DNA of 64,000 nucleotides from contig JAFZRV010000010.1 of NCBI GenBank assembly GCA_017619655.1, positions 1 through 64,000 of the forward strand, read 5' to 3'. Position numbers and translations under genes: made by a program. Position 1 is the stretch's first letter, and every line of letters starts with the position of its first letter. The notes beneath the pieces are model-generated. The model saw nothing but the letters and a program-made list of their open reading frames with translations. It had not been told where the DNA came from and made no database searches. This DNA comes from Bacteroidales bacterium (GTDB lineage: Bacteria > Bacteroidota > Bacteroidia > Bacteroidales > UBA932). Of the stretch, positions 25,612 through 28,658 are shown piece after piece.

Positions 25612-25641
25612 CAAAGATACAAAAAATAGCTATCTGGTCAA
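25612..25641 (-). promoter_or_regulatory. Promoter of lysA-ffh
   Basis: On the minus strand, TTG (25641-25639), a 19-nt spacer and TATCTTTG (25619-25612) match the consensus. The lysA ATG follows 29 nt later. The -33 part overlaps the last codons of the radical SAM gene. Confidence 0.75.
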
Positions 25642-26706
25642 GCGGTTGTAATGACAGACCAGGAGTTTGCCTTCTTCGTCATGGAGGTGCATGCCGTTGC
25701 CGCGGCAATAGCGGAACATCTTGCAGTCGGCACAGATGCCCTGCCGGGCCCAGCTGCGGTCGCGGTACATCGCGAAACGCTCGTTCCAGACCGTCCAGAA
25801 ATCGTCCCGGTAGATGTTGCCCTGGTAGAATTTGGAGCGGATGCTCGGGCAGGCGGAGATGGAGCCGTCGGCCAGGACCGAGGCGACCGAAACGCCGGCC
25901 TCGCAGTGGTAGAACGAGTCGCGCACTTCGTTCTCGAAGCCGCCCAGGAAGCCCTCGCAGGCGAAATTCAGCCCGATGCGGCCTTCCCTGCGCGTGGCGG
26001 CGATGAAATCCATGACTTCCGTGAACTGCTCGTTGCTCAACTGGAGCTCGGGGTACAGCTTCGCGCGGCCCACCGGGAAGATGGTGAAGATGCGCCAGTC
26101 GCGGACGCCCAGCGAGATGAGATAGTCCTTGAATTCAGCGAGGCGGGGGAGGCTGCGCTGGTTGACGCAGGTCACCACGTCGAAGATGAAATCCGGTTCC
26201 TGCGCCATCATGCGGATGGCGTTGGACGCGTTTTCAAAGGCCTTGGGATGGCCCCGCATCCAGGTGTGCTCTTCCTGGAAGCCGTCGAGGCTTACCGTGG
26301 CGGTGTGGATGCCGCTGGCCAGCAGGCCGTCGAAACGCCGGCGGTCGAGCAGGATGCCGTTGGTCACCATGCCCCAGGGATACTCGCGCCGGTAGAGTTC
26401 CTTGCCCACGTGCTCAAGGTCGCGCCGCATCAGCGGCTCGCCGCCCGTCAGGATGATGAAGGTGTTGTGTGGGTCTACGTGCGGGGTGAGGGAATCGATG
26501 ACGCGCAGGAAATCCGAAGCGGGCATGTCCTTGACCTCGGAATTGACGCGGCAGTCGCTGCCGCAGTGGATGCAGGCGGCGTTGCAGCGCAGGGTGCACT
26601 CCCAGAAGAGCTGCCGGAGGCGGTGCTCTTCAATCCGTTTATCCTGAAGCTTGGCAAAGAGTTCGAGTTTCAGCCGCTTGCCCGGGCCGACGTGTTTCCC
26701 GGTCAT
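25630..26706 (-). CDS. Radical SAM/SPASM enzyme of an rSAM/lipoprotein system
   Basis: The 358-residue enzyme has the radical SAM cluster motif CNAACIHC (Cys41, Cys45, Cys48), the ILTGGEPLMRRDL loop that binds SAM, and a C-terminal SPASM domain with CEAG, CPSIRS, CADCKMFRYC and a final Cys for auxiliary clusters. SPASM enzymes usually modify peptides or proteins. From memory it matches a Bacteroidetes family (TIGR04133) always found beside a particular lipoprotein (TIGR04134), here the gene overlapping it by ATGA at 26703-26706. No peptide substrate is established. It is the last gene of a five-gene operon behind a tRNA-Ser. Confidence 0.9.
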   Translation of the reverse strand: MTGKHVGPGKRLKLELFAKLQDKRIEEHRLRQLFWECTLRCNAACIHCGSDCRVNSEVKDMPASDFLRVIDSLTPHVDPHNTFIILTGGEPLMRRDLEHVGKELYRREYPWGMVTNGILLDRRRFDGLLASGIHTATVSLDGFQEEHTWMRGHPKAFENASNAIRMMAQEPDFIFDVVTCVNQRSLPRLAEFKDYLISLGVRDWRIFTIFPVGRAKLYPELQLSNEQFTEVMDFIAATRREGRIGLNFACEGFLGGFENEVRDSFYHCEAGVSVASVLADGSISACPSIRSKFYQGNIYRDDFWTVWNERFAMYRDRSWARQGICADCKMFRYCRGNGMHLHDEEGKLLVCHYNRLTR

Positions 26707-27194
26707 TTCTTTTTCAGTTTGACGGTGGGAACATCCACTTTGGCACTTCCGGAGTACCAGGGATTCTTGTCCTGCTTGCTCTTTTCGAACTTGATGTCTA
26801 CGAGGGTCGTGTTGCTTTCAAAATCGCCGCCGTTCGCAGGACCGTCTGAATCGTCGAACTGGATCTTGACCTGCGGATAGGGGAAATGCTGTCTGTCAAA
26901 GAAATAGGTTCCCTTTTCGTCGGTCTTGAGCAAGACGCCGAAAGGATCGGAGCCGTATGGGGTGCCGGGGCTTCCTTGATAAATGCCGTAGAGGCTGATG
27001 TCGATGTTGGGAATCGGATTGCCTTTTTCGTCAACAACCTTGCCCTTGACGGAATAGTGGGCCGTCGGGGTGCCATACATCAACATCCCCTTGAAAGGAT
27101 CGTCTTCGTTGTTGACTTCACTGCAACTGCCGATGCCCAGCAGGGTCAGCAGCAAGGTGAAAAAGCCGAGGCGGCGGGGTTTGCGGATTTTCAT
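26703..27194 (-). CDS. Radical SAM-associated putative lipoprotein
   Basis: The start MKIRKPRRLGFFTLLL gives a 163-residue protein with lipobox GIGSC (Cys24); longer frames upstream lack a signal peptide. The body (about 45-75) reads SVKGKVVDEKGNPIPNIDI, a transthyretin/CarboxypepD_reg-like beta domain, followed by an Asp-rich stretch and a basic C-terminus. No Cys follows Cys24. It fits the family TIGR04134, paired with the enzyme encoded next. It is coupled to both neighbours by ATGA overlaps (27191-27194 and 26703-26706). Whether it is the enzyme's substrate is unknown. Confidence 0.85.
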   Translation of the reverse strand: MKIRKPRRLGFFTLLLTLLGIGSCSEVNNEDDPFKGMLMYGTPTAHYSVKGKVVDEKGNPIPNIDISLYGIYQGSPGTPYGSDPFGVLLKTDEKGTYFFDRQHFPYPQVKIQFDDSDGPANGGDFESNTTLVDIKFEKSKQDKNPWYSGSAKVDVPTVKLKKK

Positions 27195-27346
27195 GGCATC
27201 AATTCGGGTTGGGTGGGGATGAGCTCTTCCTGCGCCGGCTTCTCCGGATCGCCTTTTGTGACGCGTTCCGGCAATACGATATCCCCGCAGCCCGCTGCCA
27301 GAAGCAGCGTCAGCAGAAGGAGGATACAAGCCATTTTCGTTTTCAT
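27191..27346 (-). CDS. Small lipoprotein, 51 residues
   Basis: This short gene is embedded in a longer open frame and easily missed. From the ATG at 27346 it encodes a signal peptide, a lipobox LAAGC (Cys20) and only 31 further residues, rich in Pro and Glu (ending PTQPELMP). Its stop overlaps the next lipoprotein start by ATGA. The signal peptide and coupling make it likely real. The tail after lipidation is almost featureless; no function is known. Confidence 0.75.
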   Translation of the reverse strand: MKTKMACILLLLTLLLAAGCGDIVLPERVTKGDPEKPAQEELIPTQPELMP

Positions 27347-27387
27347 ACGAAGGATAGATGCAGAAAAGAGGTGAAATGTTGCGTCGG

Positions 27388-28275
27388 TCAGTGCAGATTT
27401 CTGTAGTTGTAGGCTTCCCGGACGGCGCCGTCCTGCATCACGAGCAGGACAGGGAAGGAGCCGTTGGTGATGCGAAGGAAGTCGGCGGGCTCGATGAAGT
27501 GGACCTCGTCGGGCACCAAGCCGGTTTCTCCGAAAAAGGCGGTGGTGTCGGTGTCGGCGCCGCGCCCGAAGATCACGATGACCGGTGCGTCGGAAAACTC
27601 CCCGCGTGCCCGCAGGACCGCCAGCTTCTGGGCCGACATCTTGCAGAAGGGGCACTTGAGGCTGTAGAAGCAGACCACGCGCCCGCCGTCCGCGACGGAT
27701 GCGGGCAGGAGTTCCGTGTCGAGGGCTTCCTGCAACGCCTGCTCGTTGTACAGCGCGTGCCGGGCATACGCATCGTAGCGCCAGTTGTCGGGCGGCGAAA
27801 CGATGAGCACCGTGGCCAGCGGCACGAGGACGGCCAGGGCCAGCCACAGGCCTTTGCGCTTCAAGCGGAAGGGCTGCATGCGCGCGCCGAACAGCAGCAG
27901 GGCCAGCATGCCCGCATTCTTGAGCAGGGATTGCGCGGGGTTGAGGTCAACCCATTCGCCGAAGCAGTGGCAGTTGTCCTGCCGTCCCGCGAGCAGCAGT
28001 CCCGCCAGGAAGAGCGAGAAGCCGCCCAGCATCGCCAAACTGCCCCAGAAGGCCAGCCGGGGATAAAAGTTCCCGATCAGCAGCAGGCCCAGGGCATACT
28101 CCGCCGCGATCACGAGGCGGGCCAGCAGGTAGCTGGCGCCGAGGCTGAACCAGCCGAAGCTGAAGAGGTACATCTCGAACGAATCGATGTCGACCAGCTT
28201 GGCTGTGGCGGAGCATAAAAAAAGTATTCCGAGCAGAGCCCGGAATACATACTTGGCGATTTGTGTTGTTTTCAA
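27388..28275 (-). CDS. DoxX/MauE-like membrane protein fused to a thioredoxin-like domain
   Basis: The 295-residue protein has four helices in its first half, opening with YVFRALLGILFLCSATAKL (a DoxX/MauE signature), with an NCHCFGE pair (Cys102, Cys104) after the third. A further helix (about 143-159) leads to a thioredoxin-like domain with CPFC (Cys208, Cys211) in an FYSLKCPFCKMSAQK context. The layout resembles redox relays that carry electrons across the membrane to exported proteins. The likely start is TTG, one base after the stop of the upstream lipoprotein gene; no better start is near. Confidence 0.82.
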   Translation of the reverse strand: MKTTQIAKYVFRALLGILFLCSATAKLVDIDSFEMYLFSFGWFSLGASYLLARLVIAAEYALGLLLIGNFYPRLAFWGSLAMLGGFSLFLAGLLLAGRQDNCHCFGEWVDLNPAQSLLKNAGMLALLLFGARMQPFRLKRKGLWLALAVLVPLATVLIVSPPDNWRYDAYARHALYNEQALQEALDTELLPASVADGGRVVCFYSLKCPFCKMSAQKLAVLRARGEFSDAPVIVIFGRGADTDTTAFFGETGLVPDEVHFIEPADFLRITNGSFPVLLVMQDGAVREAYNYRNLH

Positions 28276-28276
28276 A

Positions 28277-28498
28277 TTAGAAAATAACCGGCGTGCACTT
28301 GGTCTCCACGGTCACGTTGATGACAGGAACGGAAACCTTCTTGTTGAAGTCGGAGCACTTGTCACCGTCTTCAATCTGGATCGACTCCTCGTAGACGACT
28401 TCGCCATTGTAGCTGGCGGAGCATTCGCAGTTCTTCGAGCAGCTGGCGAGGGTGAAGATGCCGGCAGCGATCAGCAGGGTAAACAAAACTTTCTTCAT
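28277..28498 (-). CDS. Small cysteine-rich lipoprotein, 73 residues
   Basis: The 73-residue protein has a signal peptide and lipobox LASC (Cys20). Mature Cys residues follow in NCEC (Cys24, Cys26), DKC and TKC, so two disulfides or a metal site are possible. It is the first protein gene after tRNA-Ser, and its stop is one base before the TTG of the redox membrane protein gene. I recognise no family. The cysteines make it a plausible client of that neighbour. Confidence 0.8.
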   Translation of the reverse strand: MKKVLFTLLIAAGIFTLASCSKNCECSASYNGEVVYEESIQIEDGDKCSDFNKKVSVPVINVTVETKCTPVIF

Positions 28499-28518: not shown

Positions 28519-28609
28519 TGGCGGAGAGATCGGGATTCGAACCCGAGATACCCTTTTGGGGTATACACGCTTTCCAGGCGTGCCTCTTAAGCCACTCGAG
28601 CATCTCTCC
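28519..28609 (-). tRNA. tRNA-Ser (anticodon GGA)
   Basis: The minus strand folds as a long-variable-arm tRNA: acceptor ggagaga/tctctcc, anticodon stem-loop cgcctggaaagcg with anticodon GGA, variable arm taccccaaaagggta, T loop ggttcgaatcc, discriminator G and an encoded CCA at 28519-28521. It reads UCC and UCU. The small lipoprotein gene begins 20 nt downstream on the same strand without an evident terminator. Confidence 0.96.
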
Positions 28610-28628: not shown

Positions 28629-28658
28629 CAAAGGTAACAAAATTTTTTAAGCCGACAA
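28629..28658 (-). promoter_or_regulatory. Promoter of tRNA-Ser and probably of the rSAM/lipoprotein operon
   Basis: On the minus strand, TTG (28658-28656), a 19-nt spacer and TACCTTTG (28636-28629) match the consensus. The -33 part overlaps the purC 3' end. A small hairpin (ggtccc/gggacc, 28611-28626) lies between promoter and tRNA. Confidence 0.72.

Follow-up and report, generated by a model that had tools for sequence, protein, structure and literature searches.

What does the radical S-adenosylmethionine (SAM) enzyme in a compact five-gene block of a Bacteroidales bacterium act on, and does the block form a single pathway? The block lies on the - strand at 25630-28498 of a 64,000-nt window, meaning the whole stretch of DNA analysed (positions 1 to 64,000 of contig JAFZRV010000010.1, assembly GCA_017619655.1). 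The initial annotation had read it as one pathway, in which a cytosolic enzyme modifies a lipoprotein or peptide before export and a redox protein then handles disulfides outside. We found that the five open reading frames (ORFs) are not one system; they comprise an enzyme/lipoprotein pair, a separate redox pair, and what is probably a shortened extra lipoprotein. For the first pair, we estimate a probability of roughly 0.55 that the enzyme modifies prolipoproteins in the cytosol at a Tyr-Gly-x-Pro (YGxP) motif, most likely by splicease-type excision of tyramine. The features concerned are:

25630..26706, - strand: TIGR04133 radical SAM/SPASM enzyme, 358 amino acids; proposed modifying enzyme (TIGR04133 and Pfam matches, clade with TIGR04103-like enzymes).
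26703..27194, - strand: TIGR04134 lipoprotein, 163 amino acids from the ATG at 27194; proposed substrate (lipobox IGSC, Cys24).
27066..27080, - strand: MYGTP codons (residues 39-43); proposed modification site (motif statistics; pattern match in the same genome at 27067-27080).

Family assignment of the pair was clear, and the initial annotation was exact in placing it in TIGR04133/TIGR04134: the enzyme scored 594.6 bits against TIGR04133 (cut-off 425) and the 163-residue protein, whose gene overlaps that of the enzyme by ATGA, scored 100.2 bits against TIGR04134 (cut-off 39.8). The enzyme also exceeded the Pfam cut-offs for SPASM (33.3 bits, cut-off 21.5) and Radical_SAM. Four cysteines beyond the cluster motifs (Cys37, Cys52, Cys180, and Cys250) are invariant in all 43 aligned TIGR04133 enzymes. 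Both families are typed as 'hypoth_equivalog' by NCBIfam, the listing of which states neither function nor site. Solved structures matched by the enzyme profile A1 (16 distinct sequences) were all of distant radical SAM enzymes, the best being cytosylglucuronate decarboxylase at 62 bits, which is uninformative on the substrate. In the lipoprotein, the lipobox was recognized by inspection; its Cys24, the only cysteine of the protein, is invariant in alignment A4 (48 rows, picked for a lipobox-like Cys plus the motif). Invariance of Y40, G41, and P43 in A4 was not used as evidence, because rows picked for the motif make it circular. The peptide GMLMYGTPTAHYSVK is a predicted tryptic peptide of this lipoprotein.

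The candidate site emerged from 113 TIGR04133 loci (the window, 32 stretches from other genomes, and 80 named loci). An iterated profile seeded with the window lipoprotein yielded 150 ORFs in 96 loci, one of which was dropped as a false frame (556 residues, overlying the enzyme in L081). The profile did not require the motif, and YG.P was present in 124 of the remaining 149 ORFs, YG alone in 16 and neither in nine; among these nine, the ORF of L061 is plainly a peptidase and those of L087 and L116 miss their N-terminus. A count independent of the profile took as lipoprotein-like any ORF with a hydrophobic stretch followed by a Cys, and scored YG.P at most 120 residues past that Cys. It gave 127 positive ORFs out of 395 on the enzyme strand within 1.8 kb, compared to six out of 243 at the same distance on the opposite strand, and two out of 292 and one out of 334 farther off (9/869 in total; Fisher p-value ~2e-59). 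Many counted ORFs are spurious, so all four groups are diluted; as divergent partners exist, some of the six opposite-strand matches may be real partners. An earlier, stricter detector (87/156 near, 1/57 far, 0/37 reverse; 67/113 loci) was replaced by this count.

A YG.P lipoprotein was found by the filter in 91 of the 113 loci. Six of the 22 misses were at a contig edge (L062, L085, L087, L114, L122, and L142), seven had variant motifs such as MYGVRPP, MYGPVP, or CYGPAP (L094, L106, L112, L121, L133, L134, and L136), three had a same-strand lipoprotein overlooked by the filter (L044, L057, and L126), three had the partner on the opposite strand (L048, L050, and L059), and one (L129) had it 4.3 kb upstream. 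Only L051 and L074, where no YG.P partner was seen, were left unexplained out of 113 loci. That the motif, usually [M/E/C]-Y-G-x-P, unites the partners of the enzyme is strongly supported.

The anatomy of the motif was assessed in 127 distinct proteins containing 151 copies (one copy in 104 proteins, two in 22, and three in one). The residue before Tyr was Met in 50%, Glu in 30%, and Cys in 7% of copies; that after Gly was Thr in 34%, Val in 30%, and Ser in 11%, with Pro present by definition. The first Tyr lay a median of 10 residues past the Cys, and at most 30 residues past it in 119 of the 127 proteins. The motif of the long forms is followed by a carboxypeptidase-regulatory-like domain (a weak Pfam match of 19.1 bits, below the cut-off). 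A total of 23 partners were short (48-91 amino acids), consisting of a signal peptide, the motif, and a tail, for example MKRVLSYILLALLGFAASSCNPEEQELMYGTPNGEFQEQ..., with the usual domain missing. A second copy was located at the extreme C-terminus in L041 and L044 (PEYGVPASTFKEMKEEE in the latter). The MYGxP codon pattern matched the genome of the window seven times, and three of these matches were TIGR04134 lipoproteins. Chance occurrence of MYGxP was considered and set aside, the other four matches being outside lipoprotein-like frames.

We estimated the coupling of the motif to the enzyme across genomes. At E ≤ 1e-80, TIGR04133 was detected in 35 of 40 genomes of the genus; in the order-wide sample of 198 genomes, 44 had it. 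TIGR04134 exceeded its cut-off in 24 of the 198, all of them among the 44 with the enzyme (hypergeometric p-value ~4e-19, which overstates independence since the genomes are related). A scan of named genomes yielded at least 80 TIGR04133 loci, nearly all from Bacteroidales/Bacteroidetes by title, with L141 labelled Bacillales; the genera among the matches listed were Bacteroides, Parabacteroides, Phocaeicola, Alistipes, and Butyricimonas, next to many uncultured lineages. The type strains of Bacteroides clarus (L084) and Phocaeicola massiliensis (L082) are among the holders of the pair. The genome of the window itself holds a second TIGR04133 gene (468 bits; best other family TIGR04103, 136.9 bits), adjoining a 123-residue lipoprotein that starts MKWLHNLLKG...FQACYGTP. 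Two more TIGR04134 lipoproteins of this genome, encoded on contigs that hold neither enzyme, carry CMYGTPSAEW and CMYGVPTVSY. Elsewhere, orphan relatives in enzyme-bearing genomes were mixed, several keeping YG.P. In enzyme-free genomes, YG.P was found in none of seven weak look-alikes from six genomes (L205-L210). These were seven of nine small-frame weak TIGR04134 matches, with G487:C475 and G504:C15 left out. Genomes were called enzyme-free if nothing matched at E ≤ 1e-80, a criterion that can overlook a gene split at a contig end, such as that of L204 (G356). Among genus loci without an adjacent enzyme, the lipoproteins of L175, L176, and L185 carried no YGxP; the genomes of these loci and of L177 all hold the second-type enzyme.

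Second-type loci have a form of their own. In L049, L052, L054-L058, L060, and L061, YGTP directly follows the lipobox Cys; conservation is much higher in the signal peptide, MKWLHNLLKG(L/M)SLTA, than in the mature part. In L048, L050, and L059, a CYG[T/M]P lipoprotein is divergent from the enzyme.

We propose that the enzyme at 25630-26706 would modify the adjacent prolipoprotein in the cytosol at [M/E/C]-Tyr-Gly-x-Pro, behind the future lipidated Cys, and that it may likewise act on at least two more prolipoproteins encoded on other contigs. Export would follow modification, and the product would then be lipidated and anchored. Judged from the motif statistics, YGxP is quite probably the modification site. 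Tyramine excision as the reaction, which in a PlpX-type splicease leaves an alpha-keto-beta-amino acid, is a more tentative assignment, which we rate somewhat short of even. The MYGTP of the window lipoprotein contains the X-Tyr-Gly of splicease substrates, and we infer that this lipoprotein is itself a substrate. The part of the initial annotation in which a cytosolic enzyme modifies a lipoprotein before export is the best reading, now with a candidate site; a five-gene route in which the redox protein acts afterwards found no support.

The splicease reading draws on PlpXY, which, according to the available part of PMC10533398, excises a tyramine equivalent at X-Tyr-Gly (naturally MYG and LYG). 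It can act on a ten-residue tag without requiring a leader, the tags described there being of the types IRP[L/G]YGLPI (PlpA2-type, equal to YGxP) and AVAAGYGVVFP (not YGxP). The same part credits 939 predicted splicease systems to Scott 2022 (Chem). PlpX, which belongs to IPR026482, is a radical SAM enzyme with a SPASM domain and works with PlpY, a RiPP (ribosomally synthesized and post-translationally modified peptide) recognition element (RRE) protein (PMC11002830, available part). Our system resembles PlpXY in its SPASM radical SAM enzyme, its X-Tyr-Gly motif, a Pro at the same place as in one of the two tag types, and a short, local tag that needs no leader; it differs in that its putative substrates are lipoproteins and that Glu or Cys may precede the Tyr.

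The relationship of the two enzyme groups was examined via TIGR04103, presumably the same family as IPR026482 and that of PlpX. Enzymes resembling TIGR04103 (E ≤ 1e-60, none over the cut-off) were detected in six of 296 Bacteroidota genomes sampled. Three of these six loci adjoin XYG precursors. L149 contains ORFs of 57 and 58 residues with VLYGVGIREA and MPYGVAVREA, its enzyme scoring highest with TIGR03913; the precursor ORF of L151 ends LLYGTPPVPLYQAPSK; and in L153 (5415-6056) an N-terminal domain, possibly a chagasin-like protease inhibitor, precedes the five KYGYPC and the final KYGYPG of a putative precursor. When five of the six enzymes were scanned, TIGR04133 came next behind TIGR04103 and TIGR03913 for four of them and took fourth place for the remaining one. 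On a maximum-likelihood tree of 50 proteins, 22 TIGR04133 and the six TIGR04103-like enzymes formed a clade (support 99/98); the outgroup comprised 22 further radical SAM proteins, among them AhbD/MftC-like ones, and was small with many long branches, and the comparison enzymes were those picked by the TIGR04103 profile, PlpX itself not being included.

Several observations weigh against splicing, or against the coupling of motif and enzyme. The canonical SPASM cysteine pattern is CX2CX5CX3C, yet in all 43 aligned TIGR04133 enzymes its last Cys is replaced by Gly338, which sets them apart from the six TIGR04103-like enzymes; the invariant Cys250 could stand in for that Cys. In the NCBIfam scan, the next-best families of the window enzyme were headed by AhbD (111 bits), TIGR04103 being fourth at 103.4 bits against a cut-off of 725. 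No YG precursor was seen at the other three TIGR04103-like loci (L150, L152, and L154). Among orphan relatives in enzyme-bearing genomes, only YG was present in L196, L198, and one ORF of L197, and not even that in L195, while L177 retains an MYGTP lipoprotein in a genome with the second-type enzyme only. Of insertions into FtsZ, PlpXY accepted two with GYGLP and did not accept two with LYGLP; Glu before Tyr, seen in 30% of our motifs, is absent from the natural PlpXY sites described, and Pro after YGx is not general, as shown by the AVAAGYGVVFP tag (all PMC10533398, available part). PlpX needs PlpY; no RRE-like family was found by Pfam and NCBIfam among the five genes, the rest of the genome not having been searched. 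Given the SPASM Gly and the lack of a recognized RRE gene, we do not file the enzyme under the PlpX splicease family; what we propose is a similar mode of action.

The alternative that survives best keeps YGxP as the site but assigns it another radical reaction: a Tyr C-C or ether cross-link, a three-residue cyclophane between the Tyr and the second residue after it, a thioether with Cys, or epimerization. SPASM enzymes are known for chemistry of these kinds, and the SPASM cluster ligands are unlike those of the TIGR04103-like enzymes; moreover, an aromatic residue at position +7 (Tyr or Phe in 75% of the 151 copies) could be a partner. By contrast, the residue two on from the Tyr varies and includes Gly (3%) and Pro (for example in L105, L091, and L137), which makes a fixed side-chain bond a poor fit, and the common XYG and shared clade favour splicing. 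We regard such a reaction as possible, though less probable than modification of the splicease type. A structural or sorting role for YGxP, for instance as a turn into a beta-sandwich, with the enzyme acting elsewhere, is improbable: the long forms do run from the motif into a conserved strand-like stretch (YGTPxAxYxVKG), but short partners without that domain keep the motif, which tracks the enzyme across genomes and is missing from the seven look-alikes in enzyme-free genomes.

The remaining alternative, a five-gene pathway, requires a description of the rest of the block and its borders:

27191..27346, - strand: lipoprotein-like ORF of 51 amino acids, no YG motif (aligned with lipoproteins of L032, L034, L036, and L185).
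27388..28275, - strand: MauE/DoxX membrane domain plus thioredoxin-like domain, 295 amino acids, TTG start (Pfam MauE/DoxX; invariant Cys in eight orthologues).
28277..28498, - strand: lipoprotein of 73 amino acids with four further invariant Cys (24, 26, 48, and 68; alignment of eight).
28519..28609, - strand: tRNA-Ser(GGA), immediately upstream; boundary, outside the system.
28629..28658, - strand: promoter-like TTG-N19-TACCTTTG ahead of tRNA-Ser; possible transcript start (consensus match only).
25612..25641, - strand: promoter-like TTG-N19-TATCTTTG preceding lysA; downstream limit of the block (consensus match only).

ORF translation of the window confirmed all five ORFs at the coordinates given in the initial annotation, as well as the spacing between them (gaps of one and 41 bases and two ATGA overlaps). 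Four of the five genes have orthologues in the same order in relatives. The profile searches suggested in that annotation as a check matched families for three of the proteins; the 51- and 73-residue proteins exceeded no cut-off in the Pfam and NCBIfam scans.

The 295-residue protein matched Pfam MauE (74.9 bits) and DoxX (26.1 bits). It shares the membrane domain of MauE/DoxX proteins and differs from them in having an added C-terminal region and in pairing with a four-Cys lipoprotein; against the BT_3928 family, it scored 51.4 bits, short of the cut-off of 250. The C-terminal region looks thioredoxin-like, judging by its CxxC and by inspection, with no family over the cut-off; kinship with TrbB was set aside (E 0.13). 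A CxC (102/104) and the CxxC (208/211) are invariant in eight orthologues. These pairs and the four invariant Cys of the 73-residue lipoprotein point to a likely relation of redox client and partner.

This fusion of MauE and a thioredoxin-like region (MauE-Trx) was matched in 29 of the 40 genus genomes, at full length in 25, and a Cys-rich lipoprotein lay directly upstream in 25 of 25 full-length loci. TIGR04133 adjoined the pair in 14 (the window, L031-L036, L038, L178, L179, L180, L186, L187, and L188, in the last on the other side) and did not in 11 (L175, L176, L177, L181-L185, and L189-L191). Across the order, the fusion was present in 28 of 198 genomes, 27 of them outside the genus. Of these 27 loci, viewed with flanks of ~1.5 kb, several ended by contig ends, 14 had the Cys-rich lipoprotein next to the gene in the same orientation (13 of them identified by profile and L270 by eye), L249 had it on the other strand, and in 12 none was seen; TIGR04133 was found at none of the 27. 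Two or three copies of the Cys lipoprotein occurred in L259, L261, and L265. Among the 80 named TIGR04133 loci listed, L063 alone carried the pair, and L063 and L180 are probably one record (same lipoprotein). By these counts, the Cys-lipoprotein/MauE-Trx pair is an independent recurrent two-gene unit, standing beside the enzyme in one lineage. Gene order in relatives, the comparison by which the initial annotation would have had its pathway judged, showed the genes scattered.

A single pathway in which the enzyme modifies one or more lipoproteins and MauE-Trx then handles disulfides is very improbable: the head-to-tail order here and in related genomes and the modest excess of TIGR04133 among MauE-Trx genomes (12/28 versus 44/198 overall, p-value ~0.007) speak for it, but the pair lacks an adjacent enzyme in the genus and order loci just counted, 11 other order genomes with both keep them on different contigs or >200 kb apart (G414), the window TIGR04134 protein has no Cys besides the lipidated one, and the 73-residue protein has no YG motif.

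The 51-residue ORF, counted by the initial annotation as a pathway member, likewise falls outside the pair. Its place is taken in L032, L034, L036, and L185 by lipoproteins of 143-152 amino acids starting ...GCG[NE][ILV]V..., and L038 is similar; all five have a TIGR04134-like domain and no YGxP. Over the aligned part, the N-terminus of the ORF is 31-49% identical to the longer lipoproteins (four compared), after which the ORF ends. Based on this alignment, it is probably a shortened relative of the CGNIVL-type, non-YG lipoprotein.

The block is flanked by tRNA-Ser and lysA, with a promoter-like site ahead of each. Promoter-like sites were scored against the Bacteroidales-type consensus; the window contained 10, compared to 0-3 in ten block-shuffled copies. 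Since the 73-residue gene begins 20 bases past tRNA-Ser and no promoter-like site lies nearer than the one preceding the tRNA, transcripts begun at the tRNA gene may continue into the operon.

In the literature searched, TIGR04133, TIGR04134, and 'radical SAM-associated putative lipoprotein' were not named, no paper joined splicease with Bacteroid*, and no print record of the YGxP motif was found, Scott 2022, the most relevant work, being outside that search. No title among the matches listed concerned the TIGR04133/TIGR04134 pair, and the available main text of PMC10352776, on RiPP clusters in Bacteroidales, contained neither 'lipoprotein' nor 'TIGR04'. The closest products described are DAG-RiPPs (PMC12636315, available part), which are likewise modified ribosomal products with a lipoprotein signal peptide; they differ in that MNIO iron enzymes produce them, working on C-terminal or Cys motifs, with no radical SAM case named in that part. 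As for novelty, the gene pair is already catalogued, and the window pair is an adjacent member of both families. What is added is YGxP, a specific and strongly supported substrate motif, together with orphan candidate substrates, short partners consisting of little besides the motif, and a plausible reaction.

The enzyme occurs in nearly a quarter of the order genomes (44/198) and in named Bacteroides, Parabacteroides, Phocaeicola, and Alistipes, and NCBIfam assigns no function to the pair; with a site and a reaction proposed, the function of TIGR04133/TIGR04134 becomes a one-experiment question. A bolder and rather doubtful extension is that TIGR04133 enzymes across Bacteroidales are spliceases that rewrite the lipoprotein backbone beside the lipid anchor, giving lipid-anchored alpha-ketoamide proteins, and that at CYGTP second-type loci the lipidated Cys itself becomes a beta-amino acid. 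Spliceotide ketoamides are reported as protease inhibitors (PMC11117315, available part), and the lipid-anchored proteins would, if they exist, plausibly be covalent protease traps. Should the proposal hold, gut bacteria would carry backbone-edited, lipid-anchored proteins with ketoamides, and radical SAM enzymes would join MNIOs in making hybrids of RiPP and lipoprotein.

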